64,000 bases of DNA, taken from assembly GCA_030651375.1 (NCBI GenBank), contig JAUSFM010000009.1, positions 129,345 to 193,344 of the forward strand, given 5' to 3'. The notes beneath the pieces were generated by a model that saw only the letters and a list, made by a program, of their open reading frames with translations, was not told the origin of the DNA and ran no database searches. The DNA is from Candidatus Woesearchaeota archaeon. Its GTDB lineage: Archaea; Nanobdellota; Nanobdellia; Woesearchaeales; UBA12501. Both the position numbers and the translations under genes were made by a program. Positions 48,669 to 64,000 of this stretch are shown in pieces. Within the stretch, counting starts at the first letter, position 1, and each line of letters opens with the position of its first letter.

Positions 48669-49829
48669 TTATTTATTCCCTTTAGCTCTATTGTGAGTTT
48701 TGCATAGCATTTGACAATTTTTAATATCGGTCTTTCCACCTTTACTCCAAGCACTAACATGGTCGGCGTCCATTTCATCCATTTTCCATATTTTACTTTT
48801 GTTAGCAGTGTGCCCAATAGCACAAAGAGGGCAATTTGATTTGCCTTTCTTTTTCGCTTCATCTGTTTGAGCTATATAAACAACCTTTTTTGTTGCTTCA
48901 TCAAAAACTCGCACATCAAGAAGTTTCGTGTCTTTTTCTCCACCTAAAATGTATTCAAACACTCCTCTTCGATTTTTAACATAAGGGTCCGAATATAATC
49001 TGTGGACCGCAGCCGATATTTTTTTAGGGTCATATCTTTTTTTATGATATTCCTCGTAAAATCGTCCCCACTCTAATCCACTCATCTCACTTTCTACATC
49101 AATAAATGTGTTAGATATCCAATCAATTACTTTATTAAAGTAGGTTTTTAGTTCATTAATATTTTTGTCATAACGATGTTTACTCATATAATCATCAATT
49201 TTACCTTTGCTCACCCAGTCTAGTGCTCTTGCTAAAAAATCTTGCCTTTTTACATTTCCATTGACATAAGCCCCCCATTTCTGTATATTGGAGTTTTGAG
49301 AATTGCTAAATTCTGCTTTTGCAAGAGTTACAAATGGTCCAGAAAAAATTGCATTAAAAATTTCCTGTTCATTTAATGGCACTCCAGCAATATTGACTGT
49401 CTGAAACCATTCTCTTATTTCACTTTCTGTTCCTTCACATTCATAAATCAATAATTTAGTTTGCATTATTGTTTCTTGTTTATTTACTGCAATACCGCCG
49501 AAATATTGTTCCATATCATTTTCATCTTTAACTGCAAATTTTTCTGTTACATATCGTCCAACACTAGTAATTCTTTGTTGTCCATCTAAAACTTCAAATT
49601 TATCTTTTCCAACTTTATTGAAATAAAAAAGTCCAATTGGATATCCTTTCAAAATTGACTTTATTACGGCTACATCTTTTTTCCCATCTGCATAAATATA
49701 ATTTCTCTGATATTCTGGCTGAATCGTTAAATTTCCATTTAAGCCAAAAAGTCCCTTGCCTTCCAATTCATTATAAACAAATCCTTCGCAAATTTCTTTG
49801 ACTGAATATTCTTTTAGTGTTGTTTTCAT
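48669..49829 (-). CDS. DUF262-HNH endonuclease (GmrSD/type IV-like)
   Basis: 386 residues. N-terminal DUF262 with [15 protein letters not shown], the NTP-binding DGQQR motif of GmrS/SspE/BrxU-type nucleases. C-terminal [12 protein letters not shown], then [24 protein letters not shown] and HNRAKGN. Overlaps the methyltransferase gene by 4 nt. Likely restriction component; whether it attacks modified or unmodified DNA cannot be read from sequence. Confidence 0.86.
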
Positions 49830-50957
49830 GATTTTCTACCCTTAACTTTTTTATGTTTAATAAGTATTCTGCTATATACTCTTTCACCATACACTATTCC
49901 ACACCCACCCCTATCTTCGGGATGTTTCTTATATTTTAAGCTGTCTAGAATTGCTCTTGGTGCAGATGCACGCGTATTTCCACTTGCTTGCCAAATTATT
50001 TCAAACTGGTCTGGAGAATACTTATCTAAAAAACTAATTGGAACACCCATAACCCCTTCATAATCAGAAGGAATAGCATCGGTAAAAGAAATGTCTATAG
50101 CATCATAGTTATCATATTTATCATAAGAGTTTTTACCTTTCATCTTTTTATTATATTTTAAATTATCCGCAATAGTCATCAAAGTCATTGTTTGATGACG
50201 CCGCCCATGATCAAGATTTGTGAACCAGCAAGAATTTCCTAGTCTCGTATAATTTCCCACATATCCTAGTCGTGCAGCTTTTTGTCTATCTCCTTCTGCA
50301 ACTTCCGCTCCTTCTGGAACACCAAAAACCATATCACTTCCATTACCAGTTGCTCCTAACCATAGTTTATTCTCTTTAATCAACGGGAAAACTTCTTTGT
50401 ATATAATTGAGCCCATATTTCCAATAAGCAAAAATTTCTTTTTTGCTTCTACTATCCAAGCCAAGAACTCCCTGAACAAACTAAATGGAGGATTGGTGAT
50501 TATTATGTCTGCTTCATCTCTTAATTTCTTTACTTCTGAAATCTCCATCTCCACCCATATACTGCCAATCCAAATCCTCTATGTCTATTCTGTTATCTCC
50601 TGTTTCATCCTTGGTAAGAGTAAAAATCTTTCCTTTTGTTCTGGTTTTATTTTTATCAAACTTAGGACTCTTTTTTTCAAAAAGAGTCGTCTGATAACCA
50701 TCCTTATAGCGTTTACTTTCAACAGCATAACTTGTGGAAATCAATTTTTTCAATTTAAACTTTTCAAAATTCTGTGCAAAATACTTTGTGAAATTACTCC
50801 ACTCGGGATCATCACAAGGCAAAAATATTACTTTGTCCTTAAAAACATCAGGATTAAATTCAATATACGCATTCACTTCTTTCTCAATATCCTGATATTG
50901 AGTATAAAACTCATCGTTTTTTGCATTCTTCGCTCGTGATAAAGGAGTATTTGCCAT
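49826..50957 (-). pseudogene. EcoRI-type adenine methyltransferase split by a frameshift
   Basis: Two overlapping frames make one protein. 50514-50957 encodes the N-terminus (SRAKNAKNDEFYTQYQDIEKEV; FLPCDDPEWSNFTKYF) to DWQYMGGDGDFRSKEIK; 49826-50554 continues with LRDEADIIITNPPFSLFREF, which holds the NPPF catalytic motif, and GYVGNYTRLGNSCWFTNLDHGRR. The join needs a single-base skip in the A-rich stretch near 50530-50545. The family is adenine-specific methyltransferase EcoRI-like. Either a real inactivating frameshift, a phase-variable site, or an assembly error. If inactive, the partner nuclease would be unprotected. Confidence 0.82.
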
Positions 50958-55860: not shown

Positions 55861-56352
55861 CTAGAATTTCCAGCCTTCTGCTCTGAATAATTCAACCACA
55901 TCTATGGCTTCTATTGATTTCTGATTGCACACAAAAGGAATTCTTATCTTGTTTCCCCTTAGTTTTTCTTCAGTGACTACAATTCTTTTAATTTTAAAGA
56001 TAGTTTGTTGTGTTTGTGAAGATAATTCTATTGCAAGGGCAATCACCCATGGATCTGCAGAGTGCTTAGCATTAACATCAATGAGTGAAGGATATTCTTT
56101 TAATATTTCTTGCACTAATTGGATTTGTTTAGCAGTAGGTATTTTGAATAGCTTTTTCTGCTTTTTAGCCCATTTAGCCAGTGTATCATCATAATTTTGT
56201 ATTTCGTTTAGAACTTCTTTCGGAGCGATAAAGCGGTCATTTTGAATCAATTGGCTAATATTCTTCCAAACACTTACATAAACGTCCATTGCGTTGTGCT
56301 TATTCAGTTCTATAAGGGAAGAACTATCAATAATATAAACATTATCCGTCAT
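55861..56352 (-). CDS. DUF4411 PIN-like protein
   Basis: 163 residues. VYIIDSSSLIELNKH opens a PIN-type fold; RFIAPKEVLNEI, HSADPWVIALAIEL and IVVTEEKLRGNKIRIPFVC are DUF4411 landmarks. The gene is the downstream partner of an XRE-ImmA gene (4-nt overlap), a common toxin-antitoxin-like pair. Confidence 0.85.
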   Translation of the reverse strand: MTDNVYIIDSSSLIELNKHNAMDVYVSVWKNISQLIQNDRFIAPKEVLNEIQNYDDTLAKWAKKQKKLFKIPTAKQIQLVQEILKEYPSLIDVNAKHSADPWVIALAIELSSQTQQTIFKIKRIVVTEEKLRGNKIRIPFVCNQKSIEAIDVVELFRAEGWKF

Positions 56353-57509
56353 TTTTTCGCCTTTGAGAGTACCTTGTCAAAACTCTTTGATTTAATTGAT
56401 AAATAATTTAATGCATCAGTATAGGTTATGTGGGATTTGTCATAATTATTAGCAACTAGAGAAATGAACTTATTTCCAACTTCAGAAAGACATCTTACTT
56501 CAGAGGGTATTCCTCCGCCAGTTCCTTTTTCAGCTTCTGTTTTAGGCTTGATTTCTTCTTTCTTGAATCGTGCTAGAATAGCGTCATAATCTTTTATTTC
56601 AATATAATTTAATTTAAGCATATTCAAGAGAAGCATTGCTTTACTGACTTTGTATCTATTTGATAGATATTTGAGAGTTTCTTTTTGAGTAAGATTTGCC
56701 TTGTTTGTATTAAAAGCTGATTTTGCTAAGTCTTTAGGCAATAGAAATGCTGATGCAAATTCGTTGCACCATTTTTCTACATTATCTTTAAATGTATAAG
56801 TTGCATCGGGCAAATCAATTACTGATTCGCCTAGAAGGATGTGAGCGAATTCGTGCATTAATGAGAATATTCGAGCTTCAATGTTGTCTTTTGTATTTAC
56901 TACGATTACACTTGGTGTTTCATCTACAAAGACAAATCCCCGTGCATCTTCAACAGGCATTGAGAACTGGAATAAATAAATATTTTGTTCTTCAAGAAGA
57001 TCTCTTAAGTAATTGAATAATTCATAGGGCGATTTGAATTTTCTTTGTTTTTCTTCAGTTAGATTGAATTTTTCTCTAAACTTTAGAGCAACTGTTTCTG
57101 AATTGTCTGATATTTTTGCCCTTTCTATTTTTGATTTAGTGTCATAGTCAACATTTCGGGATAGTTCTTTACTAAGTTCTTGCAATCTTCTTGCATGTCT
57201 CATTACAAAAATTGTTTTTTTGTCAAATTTATTAGTTTTGTCAGGAAGCATTCTATAGTCTTTTGGCTTTGGTTTTTCTGTCAGAGGTTTTGATAATAGA
57301 AACGATGCAACAGGTCTTTTGAATATGTGTGATAACTCTTCCAATTGCCTAAACGATGGCTTTTTCTCTCCAGATTCCATCTTTTCAATATTTTGAGTAC
57401 TGGTTTTTAGACGCTTCGCTATCTCTTCTTTTGTCCATCCTGAACTTTCTATTAACCACTTTAGGACAGATGTTTCCACACTTACGGTGATTGGTTGGTT
57501 TCTGGACAT
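56349..57509 (-). CDS. XRE HTH with ImmA/IrrE metallopeptidase domain
   Basis: 386 residues. N-terminal XRE HTH (GWTKEEIAKRLKTSTQNIEKMESGEKKPSFRQLEEL), then ImmA/IrrE with the zinc motif SLMHEFAHILLGESV and a following Asn/Glu helix (WCNEFASAFLLP). ImmA-type proteases cleave repressors in mobile elements; paired with DUF4411 it likely acts as regulator/antitoxin. Confidence 0.9.
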   Translation of the reverse strand: MSRNQPITVSVETSVLKWLIESSGWTKEEIAKRLKTSTQNIEKMESGEKKPSFRQLEELSHIFKRPVASFLLSKPLTEKPKPKDYRMLPDKTNKFDKKTIFVMRHARRLQELSKELSRNVDYDTKSKIERAKISDNSETVALKFREKFNLTEEKQRKFKSPYELFNYLRDLLEEQNIYLFQFSMPVEDARGFVFVDETPSVIVVNTKDNIEARIFSLMHEFAHILLGESVIDLPDATYTFKDNVEKWCNEFASAFLLPKDLAKSAFNTNKANLTQKETLKYLSNRYKVSKAMLLLNMLKLNYIEIKDYDAILARFKKEEIKPKTEAEKGTGGGIPSEVRCLSEVGNKFISLVANNYDKSHITYTDALNYLSIKSKSFDKVLSKAKK

Positions 57510-57542: not shown

Positions 57543-60527
57543 TTATTGTTTCTTTCCTGAATATTTCTCTTTTTTCTCAGCAACAGCCATAACTGGTAAA
57601 TCTGTTACTGCGTAAGCATTGATTTTCTTGTCCTTCGTTTTTGCATATTCATGGTAAACAAGATCAAATAGAGCAGTTTTTAATCTGGATTTTAGTTTAT
57701 CATTATCTACAATTCGCTTATAAAATGTCATATTACTATTAAGGAGTTTAGTCATTTCCTCATTAAAATACTTGTCAAATATTGCTTTAACATTATCTTT
57801 TGAATTGTGTTCTAATTTGCTTAATAAATCAATATTTCCCATCAAATTGTCTTTTACCCTGCCAAGAAATACTTTATCGTCATCTGTAAAATCAGTTCCG
57901 AAAGCGTCATTTAAGTCTTTGATTATTTTTGATAGCTTTTGGTTATCTTCAGGAGAGAATTCTCCAACGCCATCTGAAATAGGTTTAAGTTCTCCGTCAG
58001 CAGTCAATATAATTGACTTTTTTCCTTTATCAACTATCTTGTAAGAATCTATATCAACATCTTGAAGTACAGTATATGGTAAAGGATTGTTTATTGTAGG
58101 TAGTTTTTTCTGTAAAAATTTATTGAAAATATACATCTTTTCAAGATTTAAATCACTAAACGGAACAAGTTGAGAAAGGAATCCATAAATATTTTGATAT
58201 CGTTTTAATGTCTTTTTGAATTCTACTTGCTCTTTCTTGTTTTTATTTTTGAAAGATTCAACAATTGGATTAAGTATTGCGTGAAGTTTTGGCTGGTTGG
58301 CATTTGTTTTCCAATTCTTTACAAAATTATCAACATCGCTTGTTTCAAAGACTTGATAATCCAGAAGCTTATCATGGAGTTCGTACAGTTTATGAGGATC
58401 TGTCGCTTCAGAGAGGAATGTAAACTCATAGTATGGCTGGAATGCCTTTTGTATAACCTCTGTCTTATTTGCAAAATCTAATATGAGCGTATCATTCTTA
58501 GTTTGATATATTCTGTTTGCTCTACTTAATGTCTGGACTGCTGTAATACCATTTAGAAGCTTATCCACATAAATGGTATGGAGCAATGGCTGGTCAAATC
58601 CGGTCTGGAATTTATTTGCAACTATGAGTATTTTATAGTCATCTGAAGCGAACGCATTTTCTATTGTTGTCTTTGATGGCAGATTGTTCATTGAATCTTC
58701 AGTATATTCTTGTTCATCATGCTTAACGGTGCCAGTAAATGCGACGAGTGTCTTAATCGGTAAATGTTCTTCTTTTATCATTTTATCAAATGCTTTTTTG
58801 TATAGGACTGCATGAAGTCTTGATCTTGTGACGACCATTGCTTTTGCTTTACCGCTTATTTTATTAACTGTCGAACTCATAAAATGATTGAGCATGATAT
58901 CGGTTTTTCTTCCAATTGCTACAGGATGCTTCTCAACAAAGTTTCTCAATAACTTTTTTGCTTTTTTATCTTCATATTCTGGGTCGTCAGTTATTTTCTT
59001 GAAAAGCTTAAAGTATGTTTCATAAGTGAGATAATTCTTTAAAACATCTAATATGAAGCCTTCCTCTATTGCTTGCTTCATGGTATAAAGATGGAATGGG
59101 TGGAATTTTCCTCTATCATCTTTTGTTCCAAACATTTCCAAAGTTTTATTCTTCGGTGTTGCTGTGAATGCAAAGAAACTGATATTTTTGGTTGACTTGA
59201 TTGTTTCAATTTCTTTTAATATCTCTTCATCTGACTCATCCAAATCTTGGCTTTCTAACGCTTCAGCTTCTTCCAAACTATTTGTTGTCAGTGCTCTTTT
59301 TAGTGCTCGTGCATTTGCACCAGCTTGAGACGAATGTGCTTCATCAATAATAACCGCATATTTCCGGTTAGGGAATTCACTAAGTTCTTCTAGAATGTAG
59401 GGGAATTTTTGAATCGTCGTTACTACAATATTGCTTCCTGTTTTTAGTGCTTCAGCAAGGTCTGATGAATGTTTCTTTTCATCTATAACTTCAACAATTC
59501 CTTTTATTTTTTCTATTCCCTGCACTTGATCTTGAAGTTGTTTATCTATTACTTTCCTGTCTGATACAACAATAACCATATCAAATACTCTATTATCTTG
59601 TTTGTCAAATTTATTGATTAAGCCATGGGAAAGCCACGCTATCGTATTTGTTTTTCCGCTTCCTGCACTATGTTGGATAAGGTAGTTTTTACCTGGCTTC
59701 GCATCTGATAAAAGATTATTGGTACATTCAAACTGATGGTATCTTGGGAAGATTGGCTTTTCTATTCCCTCTTTATCTTTCTTCATATAGATAAAATTAG
59801 ATAGTAATTTTGAAAGTTTGTTTATCTGCAAGATATCGTTGTATAAGTAAGATGTTTTATAGTCATTTTGAACTTGTGGATTGTCAAGTGCTTTATTAAA
59901 TGGCAAGAATTCTGTCCTGTACCCTTCAAGCTTTGTTGCCATGAATATTTTTTCATCGCTCATGGCAAAATGGACTAATGTCTTTTGGAAAATCACTTCT
60001 TTTGGATCTCTATCATTTTTGTATTGTGAGATTGCCTTTTCAACACCTTGCGAAAATGTATCTTTTAACTCGATTGTAATAATAGGAAGACCATTGATGA
60101 AAATGACTAAATCCAATCTGTTTCCCTTCTCTTTATGTTCGTACTCTAATTCATCAATGACAGAAAATATGTTCTTTTCAAATTTACTGAATAAGTCTGG
60201 ATTCTTATTATTGTTTGGCTTTGGATAGAACAATTGGAAATTACATCCAACATCTTTAAACCCATTTCTTAAAATGTTTATTGTTCCTTTTGCGTCAATC
60301 TCTTTGACTAGTCTGAACAGGAATTTTTCTTCTGATTTGTCTCCGTAGATTTTTTGGAATTTCTTCCATTCTTTCTCTTGAGTATCTTGAATGAATTTAA
60401 GCGTTAATTCAGCGTCAATGCAAGCTCCTTTGTTAAAAGCTTGAGTTGTTCGTTTGTGATATCCTGTTGAGACTAGATGAGCAATAATATCGTTCTGAAA
60501 TCCCTTTTCTGAAGTGTCTGATGTCAT
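57543..60527 (-). CDS. hsdR: Type I restriction enzyme R subunit
   Basis: 994 residues. PD-(D/E)xK nuclease near residues 138-155 (RLDLVIFINGLPIITIELKD), Walker A SAGSGKTNTIAW near 292, DEAH box VIIDEAHSSQAG near 394, motif III FFAFTATPKNKT, and helicase C-terminal motifs (FQTGFDQPLLHTIYVDK; LSRANRI). Translocates and cuts unmodified DNA together with HsdM/HsdS. Stop codon intact; start overlaps hsdS end by 4 nt. Confidence 0.95.
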   Translation of the reverse strand: MTSDTSEKGFQNDIIAHLVSTGYHKRTTQAFNKGACIDAELTLKFIQDTQEKEWKKFQKIYGDKSEEKFLFRLVKEIDAKGTINILRNGFKDVGCNFQLFYPKPNNNKNPDLFSKFEKNIFSVIDELEYEHKEKGNRLDLVIFINGLPIITIELKDTFSQGVEKAISQYKNDRDPKEVIFQKTLVHFAMSDEKIFMATKLEGYRTEFLPFNKALDNPQVQNDYKTSYLYNDILQINKLSKLLSNFIYMKKDKEGIEKPIFPRYHQFECTNNLLSDAKPGKNYLIQHSAGSGKTNTIAWLSHGLINKFDKQDNRVFDMVIVVSDRKVIDKQLQDQVQGIEKIKGIVEVIDEKKHSSDLAEALKTGSNIVVTTIQKFPYILEELSEFPNRKYAVIIDEAHSSQAGANARALKRALTTNSLEEAEALESQDLDESDEEILKEIETIKSTKNISFFAFTATPKNKTLEMFGTKDDRGKFHPFHLYTMKQAIEEGFILDVLKNYLTYETYFKLFKKITDDPEYEDKKAKKLLRNFVEKHPVAIGRKTDIMLNHFMSSTVNKISGKAKAMVVTRSRLHAVLYKKAFDKMIKEEHLPIKTLVAFTGTVKHDEQEYTEDSMNNLPSKTTIENAFASDDYKILIVANKFQTGFDQPLLHTIYVDKLLNGITAVQTLSRANRIYQTKNDTLILDFANKTEVIQKAFQPYYEFTFLSEATDPHKLYELHDKLLDYQVFETSDVDNFVKNWKTNANQPKLHAILNPIVESFKNKNKKEQVEFKKTLKRYQNIYGFLSQLVPFSDLNLEKMYIFNKFLQKKLPTINNPLPYTVLQDVDIDSYKIVDKGKKSIILTADGELKPISDGVGEFSPEDNQKLSKIIKDLNDAFGTDFTDDDKVFLGRVKDNLMGNIDLLSKLEHNSKDNVKAIFDKYFNEEMTKLLNSNMTFYKRIVDNDKLKSRLKTALFDLVYHEYAKTKDKKINAYAVTDLPVMAVAEKKEKYSGKKQ

Positions 60528-61891
60528 GCGGTAGCCTCTCTTACGTCAACTTTCCCTGTTACGACATGATGGATAAGCGACTTTTTATATTCTTCCATGA
60601 GTTCAATCTTTTTTTCTATCTTTTCAATGGTTTGATCTATCTTGGAAGTTTCTTTGTCGAGATACGAAGAGATTTGGAGTTGTTCAGATGGCGTAGGTAA
60701 AAAGAATTTATATTCCAAAATATCCCAAATATCTAAACTTGCTTGGTTTGCAGTCCCATGGGCATGAATATCTAGGTATTTTCTAAACGAATCTGTTCTT
60801 AACAAGTATGTAAAATAAGATAATCTTATTTTATTAGTTTTATCTAATTCTAATCTAACGGTATTTTGATTTAATAATGAATTTGAAAATTTTGATGGAA
60901 CTACTGCAAATTGTCCTACTGCAGATTCTTTTACTTCAGGTTTACTCCCGACAGTGCTTAAAATAATATCTTCTACATGTAATTTAACTTTCTGAAATTC
61001 TTTTGCTAATTCGTAGGGTATAAAACTTTCTCCTTCTATAATGGTTTCATTTTTAATATCTGTTGCTTTAACTACGGGTACACCAGAATCAGCGAATATT
61101 TCTGATTTAAATGCAAAGCCCTTTGTGGTAGAACAAAAATGTTTAATTTTATGTTCTTCCCAACCTAAAACCGTTTCACCAATCCATTCAATTCCAGAAT
61201 CTTTCAGTTTTGCTTTTTGATTGAGTCCTTTTGTCACAACGTGATTGATGAGCGCGATACGTTTTTCTTTGAGAAGGTCTATGAGGTGTTGGTCTTTTGA
61301 GATGAGAAAATCTATTTCTGAGGATTTGATATCTAGAAAAGAGGTGATGAGAGATTGCTCTTGAAAAGAGGGAACGGCTATTTGCATATTCGCATATTTC
61401 TGCCCATTGAAATTTTCAATTGTTGTCTGCACAGAGTATAATTTTATCTGAGCAAAAAATGATTCTGATCTTGTAAAATAATATAAAAATTTACTGTCAT
61501 TTGAATTATTTGCTACAAATCTAACTAAATATCCAGCAAAGGAACATACTCCATGTTTCTTATTATCATAATACAAAGAAGTTCCTACTGAACCACTTCT
61601 TGCAATGAGCACATCACCCCTATTTAGTAAATATTCTTTATTAATTGTTTTGAAAGGCAAGTAAACTCCATTCTCAATTAATCTATTATTCTCACTAATA
61701 TCAGTAATTCTCAAAAAACGAATACCCTCATCAACATATTTCTCTGCAGGTTCATTTAATCCATATTCTGCGCTTTTAGAACATATATGTTTAACTCTAT
61801 TTATCTCCCAACTCTCAGGAATCTTCCCAATCCATTGAACTCCGGATTCTTTGTATTTTGGATAGGGTTTTAGTTTCACTTTATACCTCAT
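60524..61891 (-). CDS. hsdS: Type I restriction enzyme S (specificity) subunit
   Basis: 455 residues with two target-recognition halves: YKESGVQWIGKIPESWEINRVKHI at the start and LKDSGIEWIGETVLGWEEHKIKHF near residue 222, each followed by a TRD and a conserved coiled coil (SFLDIKSSEIDFLISKDQHLIDLLKEKR and SYLDKETSKIDQTIEKIEKKIELMEEYKK). Sets the bipartite recognition site. Overlaps the DUF4868-like gene by 11 nt. Confidence 0.93.
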   Translation of the reverse strand: MRYKVKLKPYPKYKESGVQWIGKIPESWEINRVKHICSKSAEYGLNEPAEKYVDEGIRFLRITDISENNRLIENGVYLPFKTINKEYLLNRGDVLIARSGSVGTSLYYDNKKHGVCSFAGYLVRFVANNSNDSKFLYYFTRSESFFAQIKLYSVQTTIENFNGQKYANMQIAVPSFQEQSLITSFLDIKSSEIDFLISKDQHLIDLLKEKRIALINHVVTKGLNQKAKLKDSGIEWIGETVLGWEEHKIKHFCSTTKGFAFKSEIFADSGVPVVKATDIKNETIIEGESFIPYELAKEFQKVKLHVEDIILSTVGSKPEVKESAVGQFAVVPSKFSNSLLNQNTVRLELDKTNKIRLSYFTYLLRTDSFRKYLDIHAHGTANQASLDIWDILEYKFFLPTPSEQLQISSYLDKETSKIDQTIEKIEKKIELMEEYKKSLIHHVVTGKVDVREATA

Positions 61892-62879
61892 CTCCTTTAG
61901 AGGGGTATCTTACCAATTTTTCTTTGTTCCAGTCAGGAGTCGCAATTTTTTCATCAATTAAGTCCAGTAAATCTTTAAGATTGTTAGAATCTTCAATTTT
62001 TATCTTATCTACTTCTACGCTGAAGCTATATTTATCGCCTCTTTGTTCTTTTAGAGTTTTTATCTTTTCAAACGTAATTTCATCTTTATATTTGTTAAAA
62101 ATTCTTGTAATCTGGGAATTTAATGAACCGTTCTGAATAATGGTTTCTTTTAGTTTTAGAATATTTCCCTCAGAATCTGTTTTATCAGTCACTACATCAG
62201 CAACTTCAATAAAATTAAAATTATTAAAGAATTCTCTAGACCTATTTATACAATATTCATTTAATCTAAACAGAGTTTTGAAGTTCTTTCGGTGATATAT
62301 TAAAATTTTATCACAATATAATCTTCGTTCATTGTCTGTATTGCCATCTATTAGGAAGTTTTTAAAAAAGATAAAATCAATGTAATCATCAAAATAGATA
62401 AAATCTCCCTCTAATTCTTCAATATCACCTTGATGTATGGAAAACTTCTTTTTTGCACTAACTGAAACTCTGCCTAATTTTCTAAAATACAATAATTCCT
62501 GACCTTGTTTTGAAAATTTTAGGATAGTGTAATAGTAATCTGAATAGTTGTTAGTTGCTAAGTCTATTTCTTCAGCAGAAAGTTTTCCCAGAAGATTGTT
62601 AAAATAATTATTCTGCTCAGCTAACTCAGCTTTTGTTATTTGATAATCTCTTGTATTAGAATCATCACTCATAAATTCATGAAACGCATCTAAATTTAAG
62701 CTAAAGTTATCACCTTCTCCACATAAGTATCTTTTGATTATTTCTTTAAATTTTTCTTTAAGATCATCACTAACGTTCAATTTTTTAACAGAAAGATATT
62801 CCTCTTCTGAAACACATTTTCTAGTATCTCTTTTTATTAAGAACGCCTCAACCGTCCAATCCTGTAAGTTTAGTTCCAC
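61881..62879 (-). CDS. DUF4868-like protein, candidate KwaB of a Kiwa system
   Basis: 332 residues, the size of KwaB. Fits the DUF4868 outline: a middle ELLYFRKLGRVSVSAKKKFSIHQGD, then FDDYIDFIFFKNFL, CDKILIYHRKNFKTLFRLNEYC and EFFNNFNFIEVADVV. Kiwa KwaB works with the membrane protein KwaA against phage. The gene is translationally coupled on both sides (KwaA-like upstream, hsdS downstream). Family call is by pattern recall, so a profile search is decisive. Confidence 0.6.
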   Translation of the reverse strand: MELNLQDWTVEAFLIKRDTRKCVSEEEYLSVKKLNVSDDLKEKFKEIIKRYLCGEGDNFSLNLDAFHEFMSDDSNTRDYQITKAELAEQNNYFNNLLGKLSAEEIDLATNNYSDYYYTILKFSKQGQELLYFRKLGRVSVSAKKKFSIHQGDIEELEGDFIYFDDYIDFIFFKNFLIDGNTDNERRLYCDKILIYHRKNFKTLFRLNEYCINRSREFFNNFNFIEVADVVTDKTDSEGNILKLKETIIQNGSLNSQITRIFNKYKDEITFEKIKTLKEQRGDKYSFSVEVDKIKIEDSNNLKDLLDLIDEKIATPDWNKEKLVRYPSKGDEV

Positions 62880-63442
62880 TCTTTAAACACCTTCCCATCT
62901 AATTGAGACACTTTGATGTATCCTGTTAAGTATTGTTTTTTTGAGATAATGATTAACTCTTTTCCATCTTTGGTTTTAACATTTAAAATGTAATAGGGTA
63001 TATAAAAAAGATTATATAATATCCCGTTTTCTTCTTTCAATATCAATACTAATCCTATAACAATAAAGATAATAGATCCTACAACCACGCTGGTCTTGGA
63101 AATTGTGTTGTCTTTGATGAATTCCGCTAAGAAAAGTATGAATGGAGAAAGTGAGCTAATGATATACCTCACATGAGAAGATTTCATTTCAGTACTTCTT
63201 ATGTTAATCTCTTTATCTTGGTTTTTACTTTTTTTTAAAATAACCTGATAAAAGAGGTATACTGAAATAATGGAGAACATACACAAGATAAGGAATATTA
63301 TATATTCTGGTTGGATTATATCTTTTATCGACCAAGATGTAATTCTTTTAGACAGAAAATAAGCCCAATAAACATATATCGGGAAGAAAGCTGTAAAAAC
63401 ATGCAATATCTTTCCGTAAAGATTCAATCGCTTTACCATCAC
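62870..63442 (-). CDS. Four-TM membrane protein, candidate KwaA
   Basis: 190 residues with four membrane helices: ILHVFTAFFPIYVYWAYFL, YIIFLILCMFSIISVYLFYQV, YIISSLSPFILFLAEFI and VVVGSIIFIVIGLVLIL, and a cytosolic C-terminus (KDGKELIIISKKQYLTGYIKV). Length, topology and the coupled DUF4868-like neighbour match KwaA. Start overlaps the hsdM stop by 4 nt. Confidence 0.58.
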   Translation of the reverse strand: MMVKRLNLYGKILHVFTAFFPIYVYWAYFLSKRITSWSIKDIIQPEYIIFLILCMFSIISVYLFYQVILKKSKNQDKEINIRSTEMKSSHVRYIISSLSPFILFLAEFIKDNTISKTSVVVGSIIFIVIGLVLILKEENGILYNLFYIPYYILNVKTKDGKELIIISKKQYLTGYIKVSQLDGKVFKEWN

Positions 63443-64000
63443 TCAACATCCTCCTTAATGAGTTCCTGTATCTCTGAAGTCACTTGTGTAATGTCCTTTT
63501 CAATATCTTCAAGCGCTCTTGGTGCTTCGTACTTGTAAAAGTATTTAGTAAAATTAATCTCATATCCTATTTTGTCTTTGGAACGATCCATCCACGCATC
63601 AAGATAATAAGGAGTTACTTCTTTCTTGAAATAAGCACCTATATCCTGCTTTAATGGGATTTTCTCGGAGTCACGTAAATTGCTATCTACGACTTTTTTG
63701 CCTTTTACGAGAACGTATTCGGCAGTATCATCATGTTCAGATAATGCCATAATAATTGCGTTGACAAAGTTTGGAGCTAATCCAAATTCTTTCAAAGCTT
63801 TCTTTATTTTTTCCTCAAACTTATCCCAGTTTTTGTAAGTATCTGGACCAATTGTTTTCAAAGCTTTAACAATAGCTTCTTGTTTTTCTTTTCCAGCAGT
63901 CTCTTCTTCAAGCTTTTCTTCAGGATTTTTAGATTTACTCTCACTAAGTTTTGCAAATGCAGAAACAGAGTACAAATTTTCCAGCCTTTCTTCATTTACA
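63439..64000 (-). CDS. hsdM: Type I restriction enzyme M subunit, C-terminal part (partial)
   Basis: The frame runs open to the window edge (VNEERLENLYSVSAFAKLS), so the start lies beyond 64000. Visible are the HsdM C-terminal hallmarks: SEKIPLKQDIGAYFKKEVTPYYLDAWMD and KIGYEINFTKYFYKYEAPRALEDIEKDI, then a helical tail. The catalytic NPPF part is outside the window. First gene of the operon hsdM-kwaA-kwaB-hsdS-hsdR as far as visible. Confidence 0.9.
   Translation of the reverse strand, partial: VNEERLENLYSVSAFAKLSESKSKNPEEKLEEETAGKEKQEAIVKALKTIGPDTYKNWDKFEEKIKKALKEFGLAPNFVNAIIMALSEHDDTAEYVLVKGKKVVDSNLRDSEKIPLKQDIGAYFKKEVTPYYLDAWMDRSKDKIGYEINFTKYFYKYEAPRALEDIEKDITQVTSEIQELIKEDVE

Follow-up and report, generated by a model that had tools for sequence, protein, structure and literature searches.

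What are two genes for a small membrane protein and a soluble protein doing between hsdM and hsdS of an archaeal type I restriction-modification (RM) operon? The operon occupies the last 6.5 kb of the window, by which we mean the whole stretch of 64,000 nucleotides analysed here. A sequence-only reading of this DNA had likened the two genes to kwaA and kwaB of the defence system Kiwa and had proposed that their nesting couples membrane sensing to restriction. We consider the locus, with a probability of about 0.8, to be a divergent but genuine two-gene Kiwa carried as cargo in an exchangeable hsdM/hsdS slot of an apparently intact type I RM operon.

Architecture of the operon and its gene boundaries

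All five genes are encoded on the minus strand in the order hsdM, kwaA, kwaB, hsdS and hsdR, tightly packed and apparently intact. This is the order given in the sequence-only reading, and all open reading frames were found where it had placed them. The hsdM gene is cut by the window edge, so that only its 3′ part (63439..64000) is included; the complete gene on the longer contig (L003:8783-10795, equivalent to G000:C9:192783-194795) encodes 670 amino acids. HsdM matches the Pfam families N6_Mtase (9.5e-62) and HsdM_N (1.6e-22) and carries the motifs DPACGTG and NPPY. The next two genes, kwaA (62870..63442) and kwaB (61881..62879), encode a 190-aa membrane protein and a 332-aa DUF4868/KwaB-like protein. 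They are adjacent, in the same orientation and overlap by 10 nt, as expected for a Kiwa pair. HsdS (60524..61891) contains two target-recognition domains, with matches to Pfam Methylase_S (4.5e-23) in two stretches and to PADLOC Specificity_I (6.7e-105). HsdR (57543..60527; 994 aa) contains the Pfam domains HSDR_N and SWI2_SNF2, and its nuclease and helicase motifs (LDLV..ELK, GSGKT, DEAH, TATP and QTLSRANR) appear intact. Motif and domain searches thus identified all three subunits of a type I RM system with their catalytic motifs; the operon departs from a plain HsdMSR system in that kwaAB interrupts hsdM/hsdS. The contig itself is archaeal and also encodes a TruB/Cbf5 protein with a DKCLD domain. 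An assignment to DPANN is supported by a close relative of the Kiwa pair in a Nanoarchaeota MAG of the same class.

The overlaps of 4, 10, 11 and 4 nt along the operon, described in the sequence-only reading, are exact for open reading frames drawn from their first possible start codon, with one probable correction. The start of hsdS is probably the GTG at 61879 rather than the first start at 61891, because a GAGG is located 6 nt upstream of it and an orthologous operon from another genome (G023, see below) has ATGAAACTC at this position. With this start, kwaB and hsdS are separated by a gap of 1 nt instead of overlapping by 11 nt. Likewise, kwaA may start at the ATG at 63439 instead of the GTG at 63442.

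Judged by this gene packing, joint translation of all five genes is likely, in line with what had been proposed, and RM and Kiwa, two different defences, are likely to be co-expressed from one message. Translation of kwaA probably depends on a ribosome-binding site located within the final hsdM codons, while hsdS would be read from the end of kwaB, so that RM and Kiwa would be made together. An internal kwaA promoter may be present within hsdM.

Relationship of the inserted pair to Kiwa

The hydropathy profile of KwaA shows three strong segments (residues 47-65, 91-109 and 117-135), a probable fourth at the N-terminus and a C-terminal beta region. The protein matches the PADLOC KwaA model with an E-value of 6.3e-6. 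To both proteins we applied test profiles that had been built without the window's own subfamily. A profile of nine other KwaA proteins matched the window KwaA at 1.2e-9, clearly above the best decoy (0.0012, a shuffled hydrophobic protein), and a profile of eleven other KwaB proteins matched the window KwaB at 1.3e-9, far above the best of the shuffled or natural decoys (0.29).

Against the Pfam KwaB model PF16162 (formerly DUF4868), the window KwaB scores 23.6 bits over nearly its full length, which is below the curated cut-off of 26.3 bits, and it is absent from the hmmscan Pfam listing. Two relatives from other DPANN genomes connect it to this family. The KwaB of genome G572, 54% identical over 332 aa, passes the PF16162 cut-off in hmmscan (32.5 bits, E 1.1e-7). 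The KwaB of genome G496, 37% identical (phmmer 4.7e-48), reaches 39.8 bits with PF16162 in the genome search, without an hmmscan listing, and matches PADLOC KwaB at 4.1e-6. The window KwaB is therefore assigned to PF16162 indirectly, through its G572 relative and the independent profile, with its own score below the cut-off. The window KwaA is assigned to the KwaA family, as a small multi-pass membrane protein, by PADLOC, the independent profile, its hydropathy and the fold search described below.

Predicted structures are consistent with this assignment. The AlphaFold models are of low confidence (mean pLDDT 56.8 for KwaB and 44.6 for KwaA; TM-scores below 0.4), since only two sequences were usable. 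In Foldseek searches, the best match of the KwaB model was the KwaB crystal structure 9mtn (E 1.8e-4, the next match being 1.2), and the top seven matches of the low-confidence KwaA model were all Kiwa KwaA (best E 0.05). The low-confidence fold models thus agree with a Kiwa identity, their best PDB matches being Kiwa structures. Among PDB sequences, two profiles that include other Kiwa proteins (A7 and A8) gave meaningful E-values only to Kiwa chains, while profiles of the window subfamily alone reached no Kiwa chains in the PDB by sequence.

These results bear on the alternative that the pair consists of generic accessories of an hsd operon, a small membrane protein and an unrelated soluble protein, and is not Kiwa. 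The sub-threshold Pfam score of the window KwaB would agree with such an origin, as would the lack of any PADLOC match for both KwaA and KwaB of G572. Yet the family profiles reach both partners far above the decoys, the G572 and G496 relatives tie the pair to the Pfam and PADLOC KwaB families, and the fold searches point the same way; we regard the alternative as contradicted by these data and scarcely credible. The identification of the pair as a genuine but divergent Kiwa is firm. The sequence-only reading had named the lack of a significant profile match as grounds for refutation; a match was found, and its proposal that the pair corresponds to KwaA/KwaB is supported.

The window pair shares with described Kiwa systems (structures 9mrg, 9mrx and 9mtn) a small membrane KwaA and a soluble KwaB of ∼320 aa, adjacent genes in the same order, a significant profile relationship and the best structural matches. 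It differs in being very divergent, its KwaB sharing about 25% identity with Kiwa beyond its own branch, and in residing in an RM operon of a DPANN archaeon. Single-protein searches with the window KwaB found no match in plasmids, viral contigs or 98 relatives, the divergence of the family being too high for them; viral contigs searched with other KwaB proteins gave no match either. The only return from a genome-contig search with the window and G496 pairs was a contig of a Nanoarchaeota MAG, apparently the same as that of G496.

Kiwa in RM clusters of other genomes and exchange of the hsdM/hsdS cargo

We surveyed DPANN genomes with the KwaB profile and PF16162 over the order (353 genomes), the class (378 drawn) and the phylum (371 drawn), overlapping draws that probably comprise about 600 distinct genomes. 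Seven Kiwa loci were found, four of them inside type I RM clusters. With M, S and R for the hsd genes and A and B for kwaA and kwaB, these four are arranged as M-A-B-S-R in the window genome (G000), M-A-B-HEPN-like-S-membrane ORF-R in G572, M-NYN-x-S-A-B-R in G290 and R-x-A-B-x-SLFN-x-S-...-M in G496, and the position of Kiwa thus varies between the M/S and the S/R slot. In the remaining three, a type IIG-like Eco57I enzyme directly precedes kwaA with a 4-nt overlap (G493), type III mod and res genes lie about 1.8 kb upstream (G587), or Kiwa stands alone (G498). A further 11 genomes of the order gave PF16162 matches (E 1e-4 to 0.01) that were dropped, being partial and unconfirmed by the fuller KwaB profile. 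In the G572 operon, the HEPN-like protein (L038:5280-6056) and the AT-rich membrane ORF (22% GC; L038:7329-7988) are without a PADLOC match.

The pair thus occurs with hsd genes in other DPANN genomes, another point on which the sequence-only reading had asked to be judged. Given the family-profile matches of both proteins and the recurrence of the nesting elsewhere, the arrangement is more than chance. The accompanying claim that such nesting is unusual, particularly in DPANN, finds no support in that form, as four of the seven DPANN loci found show it. Among plasmid-borne Kiwa of bacteria and haloarchaea, none of nine distinct loci lies inside hsd genes; the contrast with the DPANN loci (Fisher p = 0.02) is only a hint, as the sample was not random. 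One of these nine is enclosed by a BREX-5 cluster: on plasmid NZ_CP070334.1 of Halobacterium sp. BOL4-2 (L019:4651-16215), kwaA-kwaB, in the orientation opposite to the cluster, and a NucS-domain gene are located between pglX and the brxB-side genes. In Halomarina (L027), Kiwa adjoins BREX-5. An annotated kwaA-kwaB pair is also carried by the 5.5-kb plasmid of E. coli Nissle 1917 (e.g. NZ_CP023342.1). On Paenibacillus and Lacticaseibacillus plasmids (L026:7677-9178 and L041:7812-9309), a small hypothetical gene follows kwaB and none precedes it, perhaps reflecting a reversed kwa order like the one given for Kiwa of S. thermophilus.

The surveyed loci also speak to the idea that kwaAB arrived with the operon as a decayed or silent passenger without function. 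Both proteins are very divergent, and kwaAB is AT-rich (28-29% GC) compared to hsd (32-34%), as such a passenger might be. Against it, both frames are open and of full length, and kwaAB is more AT-rich than the neighbouring RM genes in most other clusters measured, so that low GC appears to be a trait of the family. In addition, an intact pair that retains 54% identity to its G572 counterpart between distant families implies selection, and we consider a non-functional pair very improbable.

A comparison of the lineages of Kiwa and Hsd proteins separates the two histories. Between G000 and G572, the Kiwa proteins are akin (KwaB 54%, KwaA 39%) but the Hsd proteins are not (HsdM 28%, HsdR 27%). 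Between G572 and G290, the reverse is found: the Hsd proteins are akin (HsdM 77%, HsdR 59%), KwaB is not (25%), and the slots differ. This mismatch implies several independent captures.

The clearest case of exchange is G023, a genome of another family in the same order, whose operon (L045:1881-6026) is orthologous to that of the window, with 71-72% identity for HsdM and 77% for HsdR over 623 aa to the contig end. Here, the M/S slot holds a gene for a 363-aa DUF3644 protein (Pfam 6.4e-53; PADLOC PDC-S19, 2.2e-133) in place of kwaAB, and the S/R slot holds a GmrSD-type protein (GmrSD_N, HEC-05-like). The left boundary of the M/S slot is sharp: AAGGAGGATGTTGAGTGATG, the 20 nt around the hsdM stop codon (63437..63456, minus strand), is identical in G000 and G023 and comprises the hsdM end with the ribosome-binding site and the start of the cargo. 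Similarity drops right after it and returns at the start of hsdS, where GTGAAACTAAAACC... (61849..61879, minus strand), with the probable true start codon, forms the right boundary. A conserved junction followed by different contents suggests that the hsdM end supplies the ribosome-binding site and start for whatever follows. Among the contents of the hsdM/hsdS slot, of which there are at least two, kwaAB is one. Since it lies between hsd genes and the orthologous G023 operon has a different gene in its place, an interchangeable cargo slot is the most fitting reading of the nest.

Through such a slot, at a fixed position with defined boundaries and with its ribosome-binding site in the hsdM end, entire defence modules of a type I RM operon can be exchanged. 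Reading the contents of hsdM/hsdS and hsdS/hsdR slots is thus a practical route to new defences. For DPANN archaea, in which few defences have been described, the window pair also adds one that would act at the membrane and bind DNA.

Joint cargo or joint mechanism, related systems and flanking genes

Kiwa has been reviewed as a system in which KwaA membrane tetramers associate with KwaB dimers and infection is sensed at the membrane; KwaB binds the injected DNA and blocks its replication and late transcription without cutting it (PMC12904381). By analogy to E. coli Kiwa, the membrane protein KwaA would sense virus entry and hold KwaB, and KwaB would bind the incoming DNA and prevent it from being replicated and from undergoing late transcription. 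Independently of Kiwa, unmodified DNA would be cut by the Hsd complex. Our best guess is that the same division of labour operates here, alongside ordinary type I restriction, and the shared operon would provide joint expression and joint transfer. The RecBCD link of E. coli Kiwa is unlikely to apply in archaea.

Alternatively, the nesting could be kept since Kiwa and Hsd parts work together. KwaB might hold incoming DNA at its membrane entry site for HsdR/HsdM to act on, or the methylation status might tell Kiwa self from non-self. Such coupling would suit the four nested loci, in which type I RM clusters appear to have captured Kiwa independently at least three times, as well as the overlapping type IIG neighbour in G493 and the Kiwa inside the Halobacterium BREX-5 cluster. 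It is disfavoured as the reason for nesting because an unrelated DUF3644 gene fills the slot of the orthologous G023 operon and the Kiwa and Hsd proteins do not co-diverge, their identities being unlinked across G000, G572 and G290. Moreover, the place of Kiwa in the operon varies, the G587 Kiwa, 55% identical to that of G290, lies outside type I RM, and kwaAB cloned alone confers phage resistance on other hosts (PMC11514479). We therefore judge a functionally coupled hybrid unlikely, and the original claim that nesting couples membrane sensing to restriction is unsupported in that form. Direct biochemical coupling of Kiwa to Hsd is conceivable. Its fullest version, a layered machine in which KwaA-KwaB would retain entering DNA at the membrane for inspection and cleavage by the co-translated Hsd complex, with methylation sparing the host and the slot kept for partners, is likewise unlikely. 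The interchangeable cargo slot, our preferred reading, makes the operon a place to test directly whether embedded defences have only their expression in common or their mechanism too.

Embedding of defences in RM operons is already known in principle, while Kiwa in this position is unreported in the literature searched: among the open-access papers covered, none was found to report Kiwa inside hsd operons. Nor is Kiwa mentioned in the main text of a survey covering 7747 archaeal genomes (PMC12988326). The closest precedent is DarTG2, embedded between hsdS and hsdR of an EPEC type I RM system (PMC12255303). In both loci, a complete two-gene defence module lies in an hsd operon that is preceded by a small regulator and followed by a metallopeptidase gene; they differ in the cargo and its site (hsdS/hsdR there, hsdM/hsdS here), and the small upstream ORF of the window operon is only a weak family match. 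The window pair also resembles the guilt-by-embedding candidates (Payne et al. 2024, a preprint cited in PMC12255303 and PMC12988326; PDC/HEC families in PADLOC): they too are genes within a known defence system, and the G023 slot holds one of them (PDC-S19, DUF3644). Those are mostly new candidates, whereas the window cargo is a known, characterised system.

The small upstream ORF, located before hsdM and overlapping its start by 8 nt (L003:10788-10931, beyond the window), encodes a 47-aa ribbon-helix-helix-like protein with a weak, below-cut-off match to DUF6364, and an archaeal TATA-like stretch lies just upstream. It is possibly a repressor of the operon, comparable in position to RptR. 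On the other side, 33 nt downstream of hsdR, an HTH and M78 (IrrE/ImmA-like) metallopeptidase gene (56349..57509, minus strand; Pfam Peptidase_M78 9.9e-18 and HTH_3; PADLOC RmrA 8e-22) is possibly an operon member or regulator. It overlaps by 4 nt a gene for a DUF4411 PIN-like protein (55861..56352, minus strand; Pfam DUF4411 1.2e-25; PADLOC PDC-S70 9e-4), and this pair directly past hsdR (55861-57509) is reminiscent of the toxin-antitoxin or regulator pairs found close to RM systems. Elsewhere in the window (48669-50554), a gene for a GmrSD_N-HNH protein overlaps an ORF for an EcoRI-type methylase. Only the last two thirds of the Pfam model (130-345 of 345) are matched by this ORF, and the two genes may constitute a second RM locus in truncated form.
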